Of a stretch of 64,000 nucleotides of DNA, positions 36,296 through 48,562 are shown one piece after another. This stretch comes from Mycoplasmatota bacterium (GTDB lineage Bacteria > Bacillota_I > Bacilli_A > Acholeplasmatales > Acholeplasmataceae), in NCBI GenBank assembly GCA_024650045.1, contig JANKMU010000007.1, forward strand, positions 10,248 through 74,247. The letters are read 5' to 3'. Position 1 is the stretch's first letter. Each line of letters begins with the position of its first letter. The position numbers and the translations under genes are program-made. The notes below the pieces were generated by a model, which ran no database searches, had not been told where the DNA came from, and worked only from the letters and a program-made list of their open reading frames with translations.

Positions 36296-36475
36296 AAAAA
36301 CGCCCTTAGATAAAATCTAAGGACGTAAATTTTACGCGGTGCCACCTTAGTTCTAGAGAAAATCTCTAGCCCTCAATGTCGTTATAGCCGACATACTTAT
36401 ATGCTCATAGGGTCCAACCATTCACAATCTAGCATTGGTTTCCAGCATCCCAACTCTCTATAGATAGATTTATGT
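36296..36475 (-). promoter_or_regulatory. T-box riboswitch (Trp) controlling trpS
   Basis: Minus-strand leader with the T-box core 'AAGGTGGCACCGCG' (36335-36348), terminator CGTCCTTAG / CTAAGGGCG plus T run (36295-36325), and a specifier segment 'GAATGGTT' whose UGG codon (36418-36420) specifies tryptophan. Confidence 0.92.
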
Positions 36476-36518
36476 GAATTATTTCCTAATCATCGCATAA
36501 TTTATTATACATCAATAA

Positions 36519-38285
36519 TTATTTTTCTTCAAGAACTTTCTCAAGTTCATCCACTAAAGATGTAAAACGGTCAATAACTGCCATAAATGTTTCTTTATTT
36601 GTTAAATCCGCACCAGCTTTTGCTGCTTGGTTAACAGGATAGTCACTACCACCAGATTTAAGAAGACCTAAATAGTTTTCCATTGCATTCGGTTTTTTGT
36701 TTTTAACGTCAGCATAAATCTTTAGTGAGGCACTATATGATGTAGCATATTGATAAACGTAAAATGGATAGTAGAATAAGTGTGGAATATATGCCCATAC
36801 ATATTGTTTGCCATTTTCTTCAGTGATATCTAGATCATAATAATGCTTGTATAAATCAACCATAATTTTTGATAAAGCTTCATCTGTAATTGGCATTCCC
36901 TTTTCAACCAATTGATTTGCTTCATACTCAAATGTAGCAAATAAAGTTTGACGATAGAAGGTTGCCATTATGCCATCAATTGCTGATTCTAATAAATCAA
37001 CTTTTTGCGCTTTTGATTCTGCTTTTTGAAGTAAGAAATCAAGAAGTGTATGTTCGTTAAATGTTGAAGCAATCTCAGCAACAAATATCGTGTAATCAGA
37101 AGTAGGCATTGGTTGATTTTTATTTGAGAAAATCGTGTGTGCACTGTGTCCTGCTTCATGTGCAAGTGTAAATACTGAATCTAGTGTATCATCATGATTA
37201 AGCAAAATATAAGGATGATATCCGTAGAATCCTGATGAATAAGCACCTGTGCGTTTGCCTTCTTGAGGATAAGCATCGACAAATCCATCTTCAACTGCTG
37301 ATTTTTGATTTTTTACAAATTCTGGATTCATTTCTTTGATTGATTCAAAAAACATAGTTCTAGCATCCTCAAATGGATATTTAGTATCATCTTTTGCTAG
37401 TTTCATAAAGCGATCATAAGTATGATATTTTTCTAATTTTAAATGTTTTTTTCTTAATGAAATATATCGCTTAATCGGTTCAGTATTTTCATAAGCAACA
37501 TCTTTTAGATTATGGAATACAGATGTAGGAATGTTGTTTTTGAATAATGCAGCATCTAAAGCAGATTCATAATTTCTTGACTTATAGTTTGCTGCTAGTT
37601 GTTGCAATACAAGGTTATATGTACTAGCGAAAGCAGCTTTATTTTCTTTATATCGTTTGAATGCTGCCTCAAAGACGAGTCTACGATCATCAGCATTTGG
37701 TACTTCAGCTAAAAGCGAACGATAATTAGATTGAGTTACTGTAATTTCTTTGCCATCGCTTAAAGTAACTTTTTCATCTTCAGCATCGACAATTGCTAAA
37801 GCTTGATATAGTGAAGCTGGAACACTTTTTGTAGGACCGAAATTAGCAAGGATCTTTTCTTGATCATTACTTAAGACATGCTTTTGTTGTGCAAAAAGTT
37901 TTTCCATTTGAAATTTATAGGTTTTTAGAAAGTCATCACTTTCTACAAATTCCATAATTTTCTCTTGACCAATGCTAATAAGCTCTGGTTGTGTAAATGA
38001 TGTTTTTTGATTCAATTGAGATAACATTAATAACATTTGTTGGTTTTTTGCAGATTTAACAGTGTCTTTTAAGTTTAAATCACTGTTTAAATGAATATAA
38101 GCATATAACTTATAAAGTAATTTAGTTGTTTCCTGTTCTGCTTGGAAGAAACTTCTAAAACTTTCAAGTTCATTTAACTTGCCTTGAAAAGAAGCAAGTT
38201 TTTCAATATGCTCGGGTAATTTCTTCAAATCTTCATCCCAAGCCTCTAAATTTGGATAAAATACAGATAAATCCCATTTTGACAT
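36519..38285 (-). CDS. pepF: Oligoendopeptidase F
   Basis: Cytosolic M3B zinc peptidase that cuts oligopeptides, a natural partner for the peptide importer at the window start. The zinc site is 'AHEAGHSAH' (HExxH, about residue 375) with the second-shell Glu in the downstream 'EIASTFNEH'. 588 residues match the family. The gene is monocistronic; about 200 bases separate it from divergent spx. Confidence 0.95.
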   Translation of the reverse strand: MSKWDLSVFYPNLEAWDEDLKKLPEHIEKLASFQGKLNELESFRSFFQAEQETTKLLYKLYAYIHLNSDLNLKDTVKSAKNQQMLLMLSQLNQKTSFTQPELISIGQEKIMEFVESDDFLKTYKFQMEKLFAQQKHVLSNDQEKILANFGPTKSVPASLYQALAIVDAEDEKVTLSDGKEITVTQSNYRSLLAEVPNADDRRLVFEAAFKRYKENKAAFASTYNLVLQQLAANYKSRNYESALDAALFKNNIPTSVFHNLKDVAYENTEPIKRYISLRKKHLKLEKYHTYDRFMKLAKDDTKYPFEDARTMFFESIKEMNPEFVKNQKSAVEDGFVDAYPQEGKRTGAYSSGFYGYHPYILLNHDDTLDSVFTLAHEAGHSAHTIFSNKNQPMPTSDYTIFVAEIASTFNEHTLLDFLLQKAESKAQKVDLLESAIDGIMATFYRQTLFATFEYEANQLVEKGMPITDEALSKIMVDLYKHYYDLDITEENGKQYVWAYIPHLFYYPFYVYQYATSYSASLKIYADVKNKKPNAMENYLGLLKSGGSDYPVNQAAKAGADLTNKETFMAVIDRFTSLVDELEKVLEEK

Positions 38286-42731: not shown

Positions 42732-42760
42732 TTGACACAGCAGGGCATGTATTATATAAT
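42732..42760 (+). promoter_or_regulatory. Promoter of the SipW/surface-protein locus
   Basis: TTGACA (42732-42737), a 17-base spacer and TATAAT (42755-42760): consensus promoter placing transcription start about 35 bases before the riboswitch. Confidence 0.88.
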
Positions 42761-42795
42761 AGTTACGAAAATGAAAGAATATGCATTTTCTAAAC

Positions 42796-42873
42796 AAATG
42801 TTAAAGGCAAACTTAAGGAAACTTAAGGACGCAAAGCTATAGGGCCTAAAAAAAGGTAGCCAGTTGTCATTTA
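42796..42873 (+). promoter_or_regulatory. Cyclic di-GMP-I (GEMM) riboswitch
   Basis: The conserved core is plain: GGCAAAC (42806-42812), hairpin CTTAAG-GAAA-CTTAAG with a GNRA loop, GACGCAAAGC (about 42828-42837), ATAGGGCCTA, then AGGTAGCC and AGTTGTC closing the first helix with GGCAAACT. These match the GEMM-I aptamer in order and spacing. It precedes a strong terminator and a surface-protein operon, a typical class of c-di-GMP targets. Confidence 0.93.
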
Positions 42874-42881
42874 GAATAAAA

Positions 42882-42978
42882 TCTACGATATGTAGATTTA
42901 GAATTCTACGCTTGACGATATGGCTTTTTATATGAAAAGACATTAAAGTTAACGTAGGATACCTATGTTGACTTTTTT
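42882..42978 (+). terminator. Expression platform with intrinsic terminator downstream of the c-di-GMP riboswitch
   Basis: A first hairpin AAATCTAC / GTAGATTT (about 42879-42900) lies after the aptamer. The terminator proper is AAAGTTAACGTAGG / CCTATGTTGACTTT (42945-42975), a 14-bp stem with a 3-base loop followed by T6. It ends before the AAGGAGG of the first surface-protein gene, so c-di-GMP binding probably decides termination or read-through. Whether the ligand turns the locus on or off cannot be read with certainty. Confidence 0.82.
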
Positions 42979-42999
42979 AAGTCTTAAGGAGGCGAAAAC

Positions 43000-43581
43000 T
43001 TGCTAGGGAAGAAATATGTACCAATTGTGATTATCATCATGTTGGTTATTGCATTAGGTTTTACATCCTCAGCAGCATTCGCTTATTGGCAGGATGTATC
43101 ACAAATTGGGAATGTTGTAATTCGGTTTGAAGGTGAAGATGCAAATCTAGTTGTTGAAGCTCAACATGAAGAATTTACCGGAAAACTTGTTCCTCAAGGA
43201 TATATATATTTTGAAGGTGAAGTTGATGAAGTTATCTTTGAATACGATGTGAGTGTTGATAAAACACTAGTTCAAAGCATGAATCTCATCGTGGAAGCAA
43301 AAGATATATTAATTGGTGAATCTGATGAATATGATCATCTTGTAGACATTTCAATTGGAAATGCAAAAGAGTATTTTGTAAATGAACTTTTCAATAGTGT
43401 TGTTACAGTAACAATCGTTGTAAGGTTATTGGAGCCTATCGATAATGATGAGGCAGTAGAAAAAGGTTTGGACCTTGAGTTGGTTAATGTTGAAGATTCT
43501 GAATTAGCATATAACTCAATTAAAGGAAAAGATATAAGTTTTACAATAAGTTTTAGGGTTGAACCTAAAGAAGTAGAATAA
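43000..43581 (+). CDS. Secreted protein with SipW/TasA-type signal peptide (1)
   Basis: A 193-residue protein, TTG start after AAGGAGGCG. Short basic N-terminus, hydrophobic helix (about 7-24), then 'SSAAFAYWQD', the cleavage pattern of SipW substrates such as TasA and camelysin. The mature part (about 30-193) is acidic and rich in beta-type alternation ('VVIRFEGEDANLVVE', 'VTVTIVVRLLEP'), as in small TasA-like fibre subunits. It is the first gene after the riboswitch terminator. No cell-wall anchor is present. It could be a minor or base subunit. Confidence 0.75.
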   Translation: MLGKKYVPIVIIIMLVIALGFTSSAAFAYWQDVSQIGNVVIRFEGEDANLVVEAQHEEFTGKLVPQGYIYFEGEVDEVIFEYDVSVDKTLVQSMNLIVEAKDILIGESDEYDHLVDISIGNAKEYFVNELFNSVVTVTIVVRLLEPIDNDEAVEKGLDLELVNVEDSELAYNSIKGKDISFTISFRVEPKEVE

Positions 43582-43614
43582 AAAAAAGGGAAAATAAAAA
43601 AAGGGGATTTAAAA

Positions 43615-44175
43615 ATGAGACAAAAAAATTTAGTAATTGGTTTATTAGTTATGTTGGCATTAGTAGTATCAGGTTTCACTTATGCATATTGGGCAAATGG
43701 TATTGCAGCTGATAGTGAAACTGCAATTGGAACAATCAGTGTTGGTACTGGGGAAACTGTAACATCAACAGTGAATGTTGCTGCAGCGGTTAATAGTCAA
43801 GGAGCTGATGATTTAGTTCCATCAGGATTTGGTGGTACTGGTAAAATCGAGTCATTGACATTAACATTCTCAGTTGATTGGGATTCAACAGGTTTAGATG
43901 CTAGTAATTTACAAAGTACATTAACAGTAGCTCTTGATTCTGCAGTAAATCCTACCCCAACCGATGTTTCAAGTCTGTTTGGTGTGTCTTATAATGGTAC
44001 TGGAGCTGGAAATGCTGAGTATACTATAGTTTCTGATGGTAGTGCAGTTTCAGTAGTTGTAACTGTTACACTAAACGAACCAGCAAACCAAGCTGAATAT
44101 GATTTAGTAGCTGGTTTAAATATTACATTAACATTTTCTTTCTCAGTAGCAGCTAGCACTACACCTGCACCATAA
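43615..44175 (+). CDS. Secreted TasA/camelysin-like protein, candidate fibre subunit (2)
   Basis: A 186-residue protein with signal 'VVSGFTYAYWANGI' (SipW type, cleavage near residues 24-26). The mature part is poor in charged residues and rich in Thr, Ser, Val and Ala in alternating patterns ('LTLTFSVDW', 'SVVVTVTLNEP', 'LTFSFSVAA'), consistent with a beta-sandwich fibre subunit. An AAAAAGGGG site precedes the start. It lies between the first secreted protein and the repeat protein and is the likeliest major structural subunit (inference). Confidence 0.75.
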   Translation: MRQKNLVIGLLVMLALVVSGFTYAYWANGIAADSETAIGTISVGTGETVTSTVNVAAAVNSQGADDLVPSGFGGTGKIESLTLTFSVDWDSTGLDASNLQSTLTVALDSAVNPTPTDVSSLFGVSYNGTGAGNAEYTIVSDGSAVSVVVTVTLNEPANQAEYDLVAGLNITLTFSFSVAASTTPAP

Positions 44176-44260
44176 GAAGTAATATAGACTACAATATTAT
44201 AAAAATTCAATAGGCGGCTGTCATAAGCTGCCTTTAGTACCAAATCAAGGAGGTGTCATT

Positions 44261-45841
44261 GTGGAAAAACTGAATAGATTAAAAATCATCCCTTTTGTCA
44301 CAATGATCATTTTCTTGATTGTTTTTACACTTGATTATTCTTATGCATACTTCGCATCTGATATTGCTGGAGATATGCAAAATCCAGATGAAATGATAGT
44401 GATAGGAGAATGGGGACTTGCAGTAGCCCCACCACAAGGTATTCCTGAATACGTTCAAGGAGACACTTATGAAGTTGGGGATTATGTATGGTATGAAGGT
44501 AAAATCTACCAAATCATAAGCGGAGATTATGCTTCAGCACCACCTCCATCAAACGCTCCTTATGGTGCATTTAATGAGATTTATCATGAGTATGTTCCAA
44601 CAAACACTTATTACATAGACGATGTTGTACTTCATAATGGTATGTTTTATAGAGTTATCAATGAAGGTATTGCAAATAGCAATGAACCAGGTACCAACGG
44701 TGCTGGATGGTTTAACATGTATTCCATTGTTTGGTCATCAGGTGGTACATATACAATTGGTGATTATGTTATTCATAATGGCTTATTATATAAAGCAGCT
44801 GTTGATTACAATCTACATTTGAATGAACCAGGTACATCTCTACATTGGAGAGAAGTTGGATCAGTCACTTGGAACAACTACACTCAATATGCAATAGGTG
44901 ATCACGTTTTATATAATGGTATTCTATATCGCTCACTAGCTTCTCATACCAATCAAACACCAGGTACTGGTTCAAATTGGATCGAAGTTGGTAGTTATGA
45001 ATGGACTTCATATACTGCCTATGCTAAGGATGATATTGTAAGTTATAATGGAAATTACTATATAGCTAAAAGAAAAGTCACTGGTGGTAACGTACCACCA
45101 TCAAGTAATGCATGGAATAGTTATAACATGCCAGTTTGGTCTATTTCAGGAACATACTCTAATGGTCAATTGGTATTGCATAATGGAGACTTGTATCAAG
45201 TTGTTAACGCGACCAACGCGAATGCAAATGAACCAGGTACTTCATCAAATGCATGGAATCGTGTAGATACTGCTCAATATCAATGGTTTAATACATACGC
45301 AGCAAATGACCATGTACTCTATATTGGAGGCGTTTATCGTGTTCAAAACGTAACCAATGCAAATGCAAACACACCAGGTACATTATATAATGCATGGAAT
45401 CGTATAGATACAGATGAATATCAAACATATAATGTTTATCAAGCAAATGATCACATCTTCTATAATGGAGATCCATTTAAGGTTGTCAACTTAACCAATG
45501 CCAATGCAAATACTCCAGGTACAGCATATAATGCATGGAATCAAGTAAATACGTCCGAATGGCAATGGTATAATACTTATGTCTTAGATGATTATGCATT
45601 CTTTGGTCTTTATGCATACAAAGTTGTTAATGCATCAAATGCAAATAATAATGTTGAACCAGGTACTGCAAACAATGCATGGAATCGTATTGGTACACTC
45701 TATTATCAAAGTTTTAATACATATGAAATAGATGATATTGCTATTTATGACGATGTTGCATATATTGCAATAGCAACATCTACAGATGTAACTCCTGGAG
45801 AAACAGGTTCAGAAGCATATTGGAACCTTTACTCCAATTAA
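44261..45841 (+). CDS. Secreted adhesin with ten carbohydrate-binding-type repeats
   Basis: A 526-residue protein, GTG start after AAGGAGGTG. SipW-type signal 'DYSYAYFASD' at about 25-34. After a 25-residue linker, residues about 57-526 are ten tandem units of about 45 residues of the form W/Y-x-TY-x-x-GD-x-V-x-YNG-x-x-Y-x-x-x...PGT...AWN (for example 'IGDYVIHNGLLYKA', 'NDHVLYIGGVYRV'). This is the pattern of CBM5/12 (ChtBD3-like) carbohydrate-binding modules that use aromatic residues to hold chitin or related glycans. No catalytic domain is present, so binding is the likely role. Confidence 0.82.
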   Translation: MEKLNRLKIIPFVTMIIFLIVFTLDYSYAYFASDIAGDMQNPDEMIVIGEWGLAVAPPQGIPEYVQGDTYEVGDYVWYEGKIYQIISGDYASAPPPSNAPYGAFNEIYHEYVPTNTYYIDDVVLHNGMFYRVINEGIANSNEPGTNGAGWFNMYSIVWSSGGTYTIGDYVIHNGLLYKAAVDYNLHLNEPGTSLHWREVGSVTWNNYTQYAIGDHVLYNGILYRSLASHTNQTPGTGSNWIEVGSYEWTSYTAYAKDDIVSYNGNYYIAKRKVTGGNVPPSSNAWNSYNMPVWSISGTYSNGQLVLHNGDLYQVVNATNANANEPGTSSNAWNRVDTAQYQWFNTYAANDHVLYIGGVYRVQNVTNANANTPGTLYNAWNRIDTDEYQTYNVYQANDHIFYNGDPFKVVNLTNANANTPGTAYNAWNQVNTSEWQWYNTYVLDDYAFFGLYAYKVVNASNANNNVEPGTANNAWNRIGTLYYQSFNTYEIDDIAIYDDVAYIAIATSTDVTPGETGSEAYWNLYSN

Positions 45842-45943
45842 TAAGTTAAAAATACCCTTTATTGGCTGATTTTATTAACATTTATCTAAAAATATGATAT
45901 AATTCATTCGATATATATAAAAACTTTTAAGGGGTAAATACAA

Positions 45944-46507
45944 GTGACAGAATCCAATAAAATTAAACAAATAATGAAACAAATAGGCTCAATTTTATTT
46001 TTTGTGTTATCGGGACTTTTGATTTTATATATTCTTATGGAAATCTTTATTCCCAATACAACCATTAAGGTTTTTCAGTTTAAACCTTATGTGGTGATCA
46101 CAGAAAGTATGGAGCCTGTTTTAAATGTCGATGATATGATTATTGTCTATAATCCAAATTTAGACAACCTTGAAGAAGGAGATATCATCACGTTTATGGC
46201 GGATATTGATTATGATGGAACAAAAGAAGTTATAACTCACTACATTCACTCAATTACTCTAAATACAGAAAATGAAAGAGTGTATAGAACAATTAGACAT
46301 GATGGAACAGTTCCTGATACATGGATATTAGGAGATTCAGATATCATCGGTGTTTATGGATTTAGAATTCCACAACTAGGTGTATTTGTTGCCTTTTTAA
46401 GAAGCCCGTTTGGGATTGCTGCTGTATCGGTTAACATTTTAGTCATTGCAGCAATTATTGTTATCGTTAAGTCTGGAAAGAAAGAGATAAAGAATACTGA
46501 ACAATAG
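45944..46507 (+). CDS. SipW-type signal peptidase I (active)
   Basis: A 187-residue ER/archaeal-type signal peptidase. Membrane helix 1 at about 15-35, nucleophile Ser55 in 'ITESMEPVL', base His99 in 'VITHYIHS' (His replaces the Lys of ordinary SipS) and 'GVYGFRIPQLG' near the second helix (about 150-175). GTG start after AAGGGG. It directly follows the three proteins with SipW-type signals and should process them. Confidence 0.9.
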   Translation: MTESNKIKQIMKQIGSILFFVLSGLLILYILMEIFIPNTTIKVFQFKPYVVITESMEPVLNVDDMIIVYNPNLDNLEEGDIITFMADIDYDGTKEVITHYIHSITLNTENERVYRTIRHDGTVPDTWILGDSDIIGVYGFRIPQLGVFVAFLRSPFGIAAVSVNILVIAAIIVIVKSGKKEIKNTEQ

Positions 46508-46519
46508 GGAAGTGAAAGC

Positions 46520-47122
46520 TTGGCTGAATATTTATCTACAGAAGAATTGCTGGCTCAATTAGCTAGACAAAAAGTCACTTCTGATCCACATATCCAAAAG
46601 AAAATTAAAAAGTTAAATATTAAAATTAACAAAAAAGCTATATTTTGGTCATTTGTGGTTTTAGCTATTCTACACACACTTCTTATTGCAATTCCGTTAA
46701 TAATGCCCAATAGAGGTATTAACATTCTTGGTACAACAAATGTTTTAGCTGTACCAAATAATCAAGAACTTGATGAAGAATTAAACACAAAAATAGTTGT
46801 TATCAAAAAGTTTAAATTACAAGACCTTGAAGTTGGAGATAATATTCTGATTTATGGTCGGTACGGTACGGACATATATTGGATTGAAGAAGTTGTTGAA
46901 ATCAGAGATTCAATTAATGAACTTGAAACGACTTTTGATGGTTTTATTTCCAATACAACTTCAATTGATGATGTGGACTTTATATATATAAAAGATGCAT
47001 CTTTCTTTGGAACAATCTATTATGTATCATCGAATCTAAGAGGGTTTCTTGTAATGGCTTCAGTTCAAGGTTTAATTCTATCAATCATTTATGGCTTTTA
47101 CATTAAAGAAAATAAAAAATAA
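46520..47122 (+). CDS. Signal peptidase-like protein lacking catalytic residues
   Basis: A 200-residue, two-helix (about 41-62 and 172-193) membrane protein. The central part follows SipW layout ('VVIKKFKLQDLEVGDNILIYG' parallels 'IIVxxPxDLxxGDxITF'), but the nucleophile segment reads 'NVLAVPNNQEL' where active paralogues have 'VVSDSMEP', and 'DIYWIEEVVEI' replaces 'VTHYIYSI'. A 30-residue cytoplasmic N-terminal extension is extra. TTG start after GGAAGTG. It sits between two active peptidases. It may be a chaperone, assembly partner or inhibitor (inference). Confidence 0.68.
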   Translation: MAEYLSTEELLAQLARQKVTSDPHIQKKIKKLNIKINKKAIFWSFVVLAILHTLLIAIPLIMPNRGINILGTTNVLAVPNNQELDEELNTKIVVIKKFKLQDLEVGDNILIYGRYGTDIYWIEEVVEIRDSINELETTFDGFISNTTSIDDVDFIYIKDASFFGTIYYVSSNLRGFLVMASVQGLILSIIYGFYIKENKK

Positions 47123-47150
47123 ACCTTTTTTAATAAGAGAGGTTTATTTT
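47118..47150 (+). terminator. Weak internal hairpin between signal peptidase genes
   Basis: AATAAACCT / AGGTTTATT with a 13-base loop and T-rich, non-continuous tail. It could be an attenuator or mRNA-stability hairpin. Confidence 0.35.
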
Positions 47151-47166
47151 ATTAAGAGGAGCTTAT

Positions 47167-47709
47167 ATGGAAAAAGTAGTTAGTAAAAAGATGGTTATAA
47201 ATGCGATGTTTTACTTAATAACTGCTTTATTAGGTGGGTTTATATTGATGCAACTATTCGCACCAGGACATACAATTAAGCTTCTTGGATTTAGAAGTTT
47301 CGCTGTCGTATCAGATAGTATGGAGCCAGTTTATAACATTGGAGATATTATTATTGTTAAGCCTGTAGATCCAGAAGATTTACAAGTTGAAGATGTTATA
47401 ACCTTCAAAGTAGATTTAAATAACGATGGAAGAAAAGAAACAGTTACCCATTATATCTATTCGATAGAAATGATTGATAATGAGCGACAGTTTCAAACGA
47501 ATCCACATGGTTTTAATAATCCTGATCCATGGACGATTTCAGATGACGATATTATAGGATTGGTGCAATCTAAAATATCGTATGTTGGATATATTATTAT
47601 TTTCTTTCAAATATTAATTCAAAATCCGATTTTTCTTGGTTTAATATTATTGAATATTACAATTATAGTTGCTATTGTCATGTTATTAAAGAAAAGTAAA
47701 AAGGAGTAA
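47167..47709 (+). CDS. SipW-type signal peptidase I (active, second copy)
   Basis: A 180-residue homologue of the first peptidase: Ser51 in 'VVSDSMEPV', His95 in 'VTHYIYSI', helix 1 at about 10-32 and helix 2 at about 150-173. 'NIGDIIIVKPVDPEDL' is typical. AAGAGGAG precedes the start. Four bases separate it from ung, so the two genes may share a transcript. A second copy may have different substrate preference. Confidence 0.9.
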   Translation: MEKVVSKKMVINAMFYLITALLGGFILMQLFAPGHTIKLLGFRSFAVVSDSMEPVYNIGDIIIVKPVDPEDLQVEDVITFKVDLNNDGRKETVTHYIYSIEMIDNERQFQTNPHGFNNPDPWTISDDDIIGLVQSKISYVGYIIIFFQILIQNPIFLGLILLNITIIVAIVMLLKKSKKE

Positions 47710-48426: not shown

Positions 48427-48432
48427 GAGTTT

Positions 48433-48562
48433 GCAGAGTAATTAGGAAGCGTTAAGTGTCTAACCATGGGATGTCGGGTTGGAACGAACACGAAAGTGGC
48501 GGTTTTCTAATGCGTCCGCTGTAAGCAATTATGGTGGACCTCAAAAATAGGAGGTCTTTTTT
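48433..48562 (+). promoter_or_regulatory. Tetrahydrofolate riboswitch and ribosome-site-sequestering hairpin
   Basis: The aptamer (about 48433-48526) shows the THF-I signatures 'AGCGTTAAGTGTC', 'ATGGGATGTCGGGTTGGAACGA' region and 'GCGTCCGCTGTAAG'. Downstream, GACCTC (48537-48542) pairs with GAGGTC (48551-48556), which includes the AGGAGGT ribosome site of folT and is followed by T6. The hairpin can act as a terminator, hide the ribosome site, or both. Confidence 0.88.

Follow-up and report, generated by a model that had tools for sequence, protein, structure and literature searches.

A Probable Surface-Fibre Locus of TasA-SipW Type under Predicted Activation by c-di-GMP in a Presumably Wall-Less Relative of Acholeplasma

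Introduction

The closest described counterparts of the locus reported here are tapA-sipW-tasA of Bacillus subtilis and sipW-tasA-calY of B. cereus. Both combine SipW-type signals with an ER-type S26 peptidase encoded beside its substrates, and both encode paired homologous small exported proteins with a TasA-like fold; the present locus shares the signals, the adjacent peptidase and the protein pair, and a weak structural match suggests a TasA-like fold. Unlike either of them, the present locus gives no match to the TasA/camelysin family, is headed by a c-di-GMP riboswitch, has a separate promoter for its peptidases, and includes a conserved pseudopeptidase and a CBM5/12 protein, in a host that is presumably wall-less. 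The sipW-bsaA system of Clostridium perfringens comprises SipW and secreted proteins that polymerise without a sortase (PMC7395162). It is regulated by a two-component system and is not described as riboswitch-controlled, unlike the present locus (PMC7395162). No sortase was found among the ORFs of the locus.

On the side of regulation, the riboswitch Bc2 of Bacillus thuringiensis lies ahead of the gene for a collagen adhesion protein. It resembles the present case as a class I ON switch (predicted here) ahead of a surface protein, but that protein is of another class, whereas the present genome reserves the switch class for proteins with a SipW-type signal (five of five). In Vibrio cholerae, the c-di-GMP-I riboswitch Vc1 precedes gbpA, which likewise joins class I to a chitin-binding surface protein; the organism, the export route and the gene neighbourhood are different, and Vc1 is not accompanied by a SipW-type system. 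The protein called P5 below resembles SipA of the Streptococcus pyogenes pilus loci, a conserved member of the signal-peptidase family that lacks the catalytic residues (PMC4049620). However, SipA is a relative of the bacterial Ser-Lys type in a sortase-pilus locus, whereas P5 derives from the SipW-like (Ser-His-Asp) type.

In the open-access literature that was searched, no account was found of c-di-GMP riboswitches controlling SipW-type proteins, nor of biofilm-type c-di-GMP control in relatives of Acholeplasma. Each element of the locus has a precedent. Apparently new are the way in which the elements are combined, the pseudopeptidase, and the fact that a single riboswitch class is dedicated to a single export class. 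The locus occupies positions 42732 to 47709 of the window, by which the whole stretch of 64,000 nucleotides that was analysed is meant. Its riboswitch and gene content are near certain; taken as a whole, it probably encodes surface fibres of the TasA-SipW kind that are activated by c-di-GMP, in a relative of Acholeplasma that lacks a wall. Biofilm-type c-di-GMP control has been little described in wall-less bacteria, and here the whole predicted path is legible from sequence, from the c-di-GMP enzymes through a riboswitch with an explicit antiterminator to the subunits, the peptidases and a polysaccharide-binding protein. Two further points of interest are directly testable: a riboswitch class that is cleanly devoted to a single export class, and a pseudo-signal-peptidase that is conserved although the locus is not of the sortase-pilus kind.

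Host Genome and Conservation of the Locus

The assembly comprises 1.89 Mb in 41 contigs, and its nearest named relative among the compared genomes is an uncultured Acholeplasmataceae bacterium (L021). The locus reads the standard bacterial code. The original prediction had been staked on a covariance match to the aptamer and on a diguanylate cyclase somewhere in the genome; the match was found (see below), and the genome encodes 15 GGDEF and 5 EAL domains. No penicillin-binding transpeptidase was found in this 99.94% complete genome, although the same search was positive in 10 of 14 control genomes. Judged by this one family, the result is consistent with the wall-less cell that had been supposed, which is a fair inference.

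The order gapA-riboswitch-P1-P2-(P3)-P4-P5-P6-ung is contiguous in 20 genomes, which belong to the genus of the window and to the genera g10 and g15; further loci are broken by contig ends. The riboswitches at the loci of relatives were confirmed by covariance model where checked. The combination of genes had been called an unusual assembly; it is not a one-off, as the order is conserved across genera.

Two other regulatory RNAs lie in the vicinity. A tetrahydrofolate riboswitch (69 bits, 48432–48523, + strand) immediately precedes an ORF (48531) whose product resembles an ECF-type transporter subunit, and it is kept beside the locus in relatives. On the minus strand, a T-box leader (99.7 bits, 36316–36502) adjoins the ORF 36519–38285, which encodes an oligoendopeptidase-like protein.

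The Riboswitch and Its Polarity

All features of the locus lie on the + strand. Transcription is predicted to start from a sigma-70 promoter with the sequence TTGACA-17-TATAAT (42732–42760), which matches the consensus at 12 of 12 positions. It is separated by 35 bases from a c-di-GMP-I (GEMM-I) riboswitch aptamer (42796–42871), which matched the covariance model RF01051 over positions 1–87 of 87 with 68.6 bits (E = 2.5e-11), against a gathering score of 35 bits. Folding places the 5′ strand of aptamer helix P1, TTCTAAACAAATG, at 42788–42800 and its 3′ strand at 42868–42876. In and just past the latter lies TAGAAT, for which ATTCTA at 42903 is an alternative partner. The predicted antiterminator strand, ATTCTACGCTTGAC (42903–42916), was located by folding and leader comparison. 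It is followed by an intrinsic terminator (42945–42977), of which the hairpin (42945–42975) has a 14-pair stem and a 3-base loop and runs into a T-run; on its 3′ side, a ribosome-binding site precedes the TTG codon at which protein P1 starts. The consensus promoter, the GEMM-I riboswitch and the strong terminator of the original prediction are thus all borne out, and the riboswitch match together with the leader folds supports its reading that c-di-GMP would control the locus directly.

The polarity of the switch cannot be assumed, since the class I riboswitches of C. difficile act mostly, and by the account of reporter assays uniformly, as off switches (PMC6200980), whereas Bc2 of B. thuringiensis is a class I ON switch (PMC11218506). 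The strand 42903–42916 has two competing partners, namely the 5′ arm of the terminator and the 3′ half of the unliganded aptamer, where ATTCTACGCTTGAC can pair with GCCAGTTGTCA...TAGAAT. For the unconstrained leader of the window, folding gave a terminator probability of 0.96; with aptamer helix P1 enforced, it gave an antiterminator probability of 0.83. Plain equilibrium terminator probabilities separated the leaders poorly (5 of 22 ON, 0 OFF), because the finished terminator dominates, and this test was therefore replaced by a nascent-transcript test with a shuffle control.

In the nascent-transcript test, the mean antiterminator pairing over 20 orthologous leaders rose from 0.40 when the aptamer was free to misfold to 0.77 when it was self-contained. 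The pairing went up by more than 0.1 in 13 leaders, went down in none, and changed little in 7. As the removal of a competitor can only raise pairing, a control was added in which the 5′ part was replaced by shuffled sequence. In the leader of the window, the real 5′ part was a stronger competitor than any of 60 shuffled versions, and over the leaders the mean antiterminator pairing was 0.70 with a shuffled 5′ part versus 0.40 with the native sequence. A comparison of 17 leaders showed one strand to be contested by the antiterminator and the aptamer-platform helix, and the pairing of both helices is kept between species though the sequences differ.

Leader folding, the shuffle control and the conservation of mutually exclusive helices support ON polarity, which is likely: in the window and in most of the 20 related leaders, the folding of the aptamer is predicted to free the antiterminator strand. 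An OFF switch, through which c-di-GMP would turn the surface proteins off, would agree with the C. difficile reporters, but it is improbable at this locus, given that the window's own folding test favours ON, that 0 of the 20 leaders went the opposite way, that the two helices share one strand, and that ON switches such as Bc2 exist in class I. In the ON model, the 3′ half of the aptamer would pair with 42903–42916 at low c-di-GMP, the terminator would form, and transcription from 42732 would end before P1. With c-di-GMP bound, the aptamer would close helix P1 and the freed strand would pair with the 5′ arm of the terminator, and RNA polymerase would continue into P1, P2 and P3.

The Exported Proteins

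The first gene of the switched unit encodes P1 (43000–43581), a protein of 193 aa with a TTG start behind AAGGAGG at 42986, which is a probable TasA-like subunit. It is followed by P2 (43615–44175; 186 aa), the model of which resembles TasA, and by P3 (44261–45841; 526 aa), in which Pfam recognises tandem CBM5/12 modules. The gap between P2 and P3 contains the hairpin GGCGGCT/AGCTGCC (44213–44232), possibly an attenuator or an RNA stabiliser. A short hydrophobic N-terminus that ends in an AYW motif is typical of SipW substrates, and the N-termini of P1 and P2 are of this kind. Three SipW-signal proteins had been predicted, and by motif pattern SipW-type N-termini were indeed found at 43000, 43615 and 44261. 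None of the three passed the SipW-signal profile TIGR04088, where P1 scored 12.3 bits against a cut-off of 19 and P2 and P3 were not among the matches.

P1 and P2 are homologous to each other (hhalign E = 4e-21). Neither gave a TasA/camelysin match in Pfam at E up to 1, and sequence searches of both against solved structures gave no match. A structure model of P2 (pLDDT 82.7) had TasA (5of1) as its best-probability match in the PDB (prob 0.97), but this match is weak, with an E value of 7e-3 and a TM-score of 0.39. The predicted likeness of P1 and P2 to TasA is a lead, not family membership.

The assignment of P3 is based on PF02839, which matched in six stretches with 89.5 bits against a cut-off of 26.2 (E = 1.4e-25). 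CBM5/12 was matched in all seven P3 homologues tested, i.e. the P3 of the window and six in other species. The ‘repeat adhesin’ that had been proposed is thus identified as a tandem CBM5/12 (chitin-binding-type) protein. P3 is absent or a remnant in eight loci of the same genus and is therefore optional rather than essential, which suggests that P1 and P2 form the core and that P3 may serve as an optional tip or tether.

P1–P3 would leave the cell by Sec; P1 and P2 would build thin filaments on the membrane surface, and P3, through its tandem CBM5/12 modules, would bind chitin or a polysaccharide like it. We infer both fibre formation and polysaccharide binding, and consider it fairly likely that the products of the locus form fibres. 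The cell might adopt the sessile state that had been suggested. Alternatively, P1–P3 may stay unpolymerised, as coat or adhesion proteins that are either secreted or held at the membrane, which would give a surface coat instead of fibres. A wall-less cell may protect itself with such coats, and the lack of a TasA family match and the weak fold match fit this reading. It is nevertheless the less probable one, and unlikely overall, because P1 and P2, like TasA and CalY in B. cereus, are paired homologues encoded next to SipW-like peptidases, and because TasA is the best-probability fold match in the PDB.

The Signal Peptidases

A second promoter (45875–45903) serves the S26 genes. It reads TTAACA-17-TATAAT, has a TG in front of the -10, and matches the consensus at 11 of 12 positions. 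In most relatives, TATAAT is found about 30–50 bases ahead of P4, and several have a good -35. With this promoter conserved, the peptidases could be expressed independently of the switch. The single switched block of the original prediction, with the peptidases inside it, was therefore rejected as stated, since the S26 genes carry their own conserved promoter ahead of 45944; read-through may still occur.

P4 (45944–46507) and P6 (47167–47709) scored above the cut-off of TIGR02228 with the catalytic Ser and His kept, which identifies them as SipW-like (ER-type, S26B) signal peptidases. They adjoin P1–P3, in agreement with the earlier reading of SipW-type exported proteins beside dedicated peptidases. 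The catalytic Ser and His were lost from P4 in 8 of 24 genomes, so P4 is not essential; they were lost from P6 in none. P6 would cleave the SipW-type signals, together with P4 in those genomes in which P4 retains its catalytic residues, and both enzymes, being transcribed from the separate promoter, would already be present. At the junction of P5 and P6, an inverted repeat, AATAAACC/GGTTTATT (47119–47156), may be a terminator.

The separate promoter could also mean that 45944–47709 is an unrelated constitutive operon that merely lies beside the switched unit. This is very improbable, as the peptidase genes were never found apart from P1–P2 in 20 contiguous loci, and other riboswitch operons also pair SipW-like peptidases with SipW-type substrates.

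The Pseudopeptidase P5

Between P4 and P6 lies P5 (46520–47122). Its sequence alone gave no family match; the P5 family profile aligns with that of the P4 family (E = 9.6e-8) and also retrieves genuine S26 genes, and by this profile comparison P5 is an S26 homologue. The serine of the SMxP motif and the histidine were found in none of 23 distinct P5 orthologues. Three active peptidases were therefore rejected: of the three SipW-type peptidases that had been proposed, P4 and P6 hold and P5, on sequence grounds, is a conserved pseudopeptidase. By the residue pattern of P4, P5 and P6, no locus lacks an active S26 protein, and none lacks a dead one. A fold search with the model of P5 was uninformative, the best PDB matches being small beta-barrels, with the LexA C-domain among the weaker ones.

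The loss of the catalytic Ser and His might indicate that P5 is a decaying paralogue without function. This is highly improbable, since 23 distinct genomes from three genera each carry a single P5 gene, as an intact frame at a constant location, and P5 has conserved positions of its own. Its nearest precedent is SipA, a dead relative of signal peptidases that S. pyogenes requires to assemble its pili (PMC4049620). By analogy with SipA in streptococcal pili, P5 may bind substrates or the active peptidases and so help processing or assembly; the chances that it is such a partner are about even.

The c-di-GMP-I Riboswitch Regulon

The genome contains five c-di-GMP-I riboswitches, all of which precede genes for proteins with a SipW-type signal. 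One belongs to the gapA-ung locus described above. Two form a tandem pair before an operon that encodes several SipW-type-signal proteins along with two SipW-like peptidases, the fourth lies within the same island, and the fifth is ahead of a GLUG-motif protein. The operon has a second copy, without a riboswitch, just upstream of the island, where two GGDEF-EAL genes also lie.

Across the order, c-di-GMP-I riboswitches were found in 91 of 160 genomes. Among 59 additional sites at which the first gene could be read, 45 had a SipW-type signal in the first or second gene, versus 0 of 58 other genes in the window that served as controls; the motif pattern, including the TFYG variant, was composed after the examples of this genome had been seen, and most of the count comes from canonical AW/AF motifs in the second gene (39 of 59). 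In a small sample of other orders of the class, 7 of 20 sites had a SipW-type signal. The genes at sites without one include GGDEF and MreB-like genes. We propose, tentatively and with somewhat less than even confidence, that the c-di-GMP-I riboswitch of wall-less Acholeplasma relatives serves as the dedicated master control of the SipW-type secretome, and that the gapA-ung locus specifies a fibre machine that needs neither sortase nor wall, with an active SipW-like peptidase and a conserved, catalytically dead S26 partner acting together in a membrane complex.

Several further observations were made at these sites. The second copy of the SipW-type operon, which gave no c-di-GMP-I match (L230 480–7680, i.e. 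C22:20481–27676 of this genome, and L231), lies directly behind the two GGDEF-EAL genes, and a protein-coupled control by c-di-GMP is possible there. The SipW-type operons end in very large ORFs of 2238 and 1771 aa (L051 12287–19000; C22:27688–33003), the former without a Pfam match. An AAA ATPase-like gene is present in the riboswitch-controlled SipW-type operon (L051 5851–7386) and has a counterpart in the second copy. In another order of the class (L247), P1- and P2-like genes were found behind a c-di-GMP-I riboswitch, which indicates that the module may predate the order. In other Bacilli (L237, L240 and L252), c-di-GMP-I riboswitches lie ahead of MreB-like gene pairs, and at L208 and L213 GGDEF genes lie behind such riboswitches, which suggests feedback on c-di-GMP synthesis.
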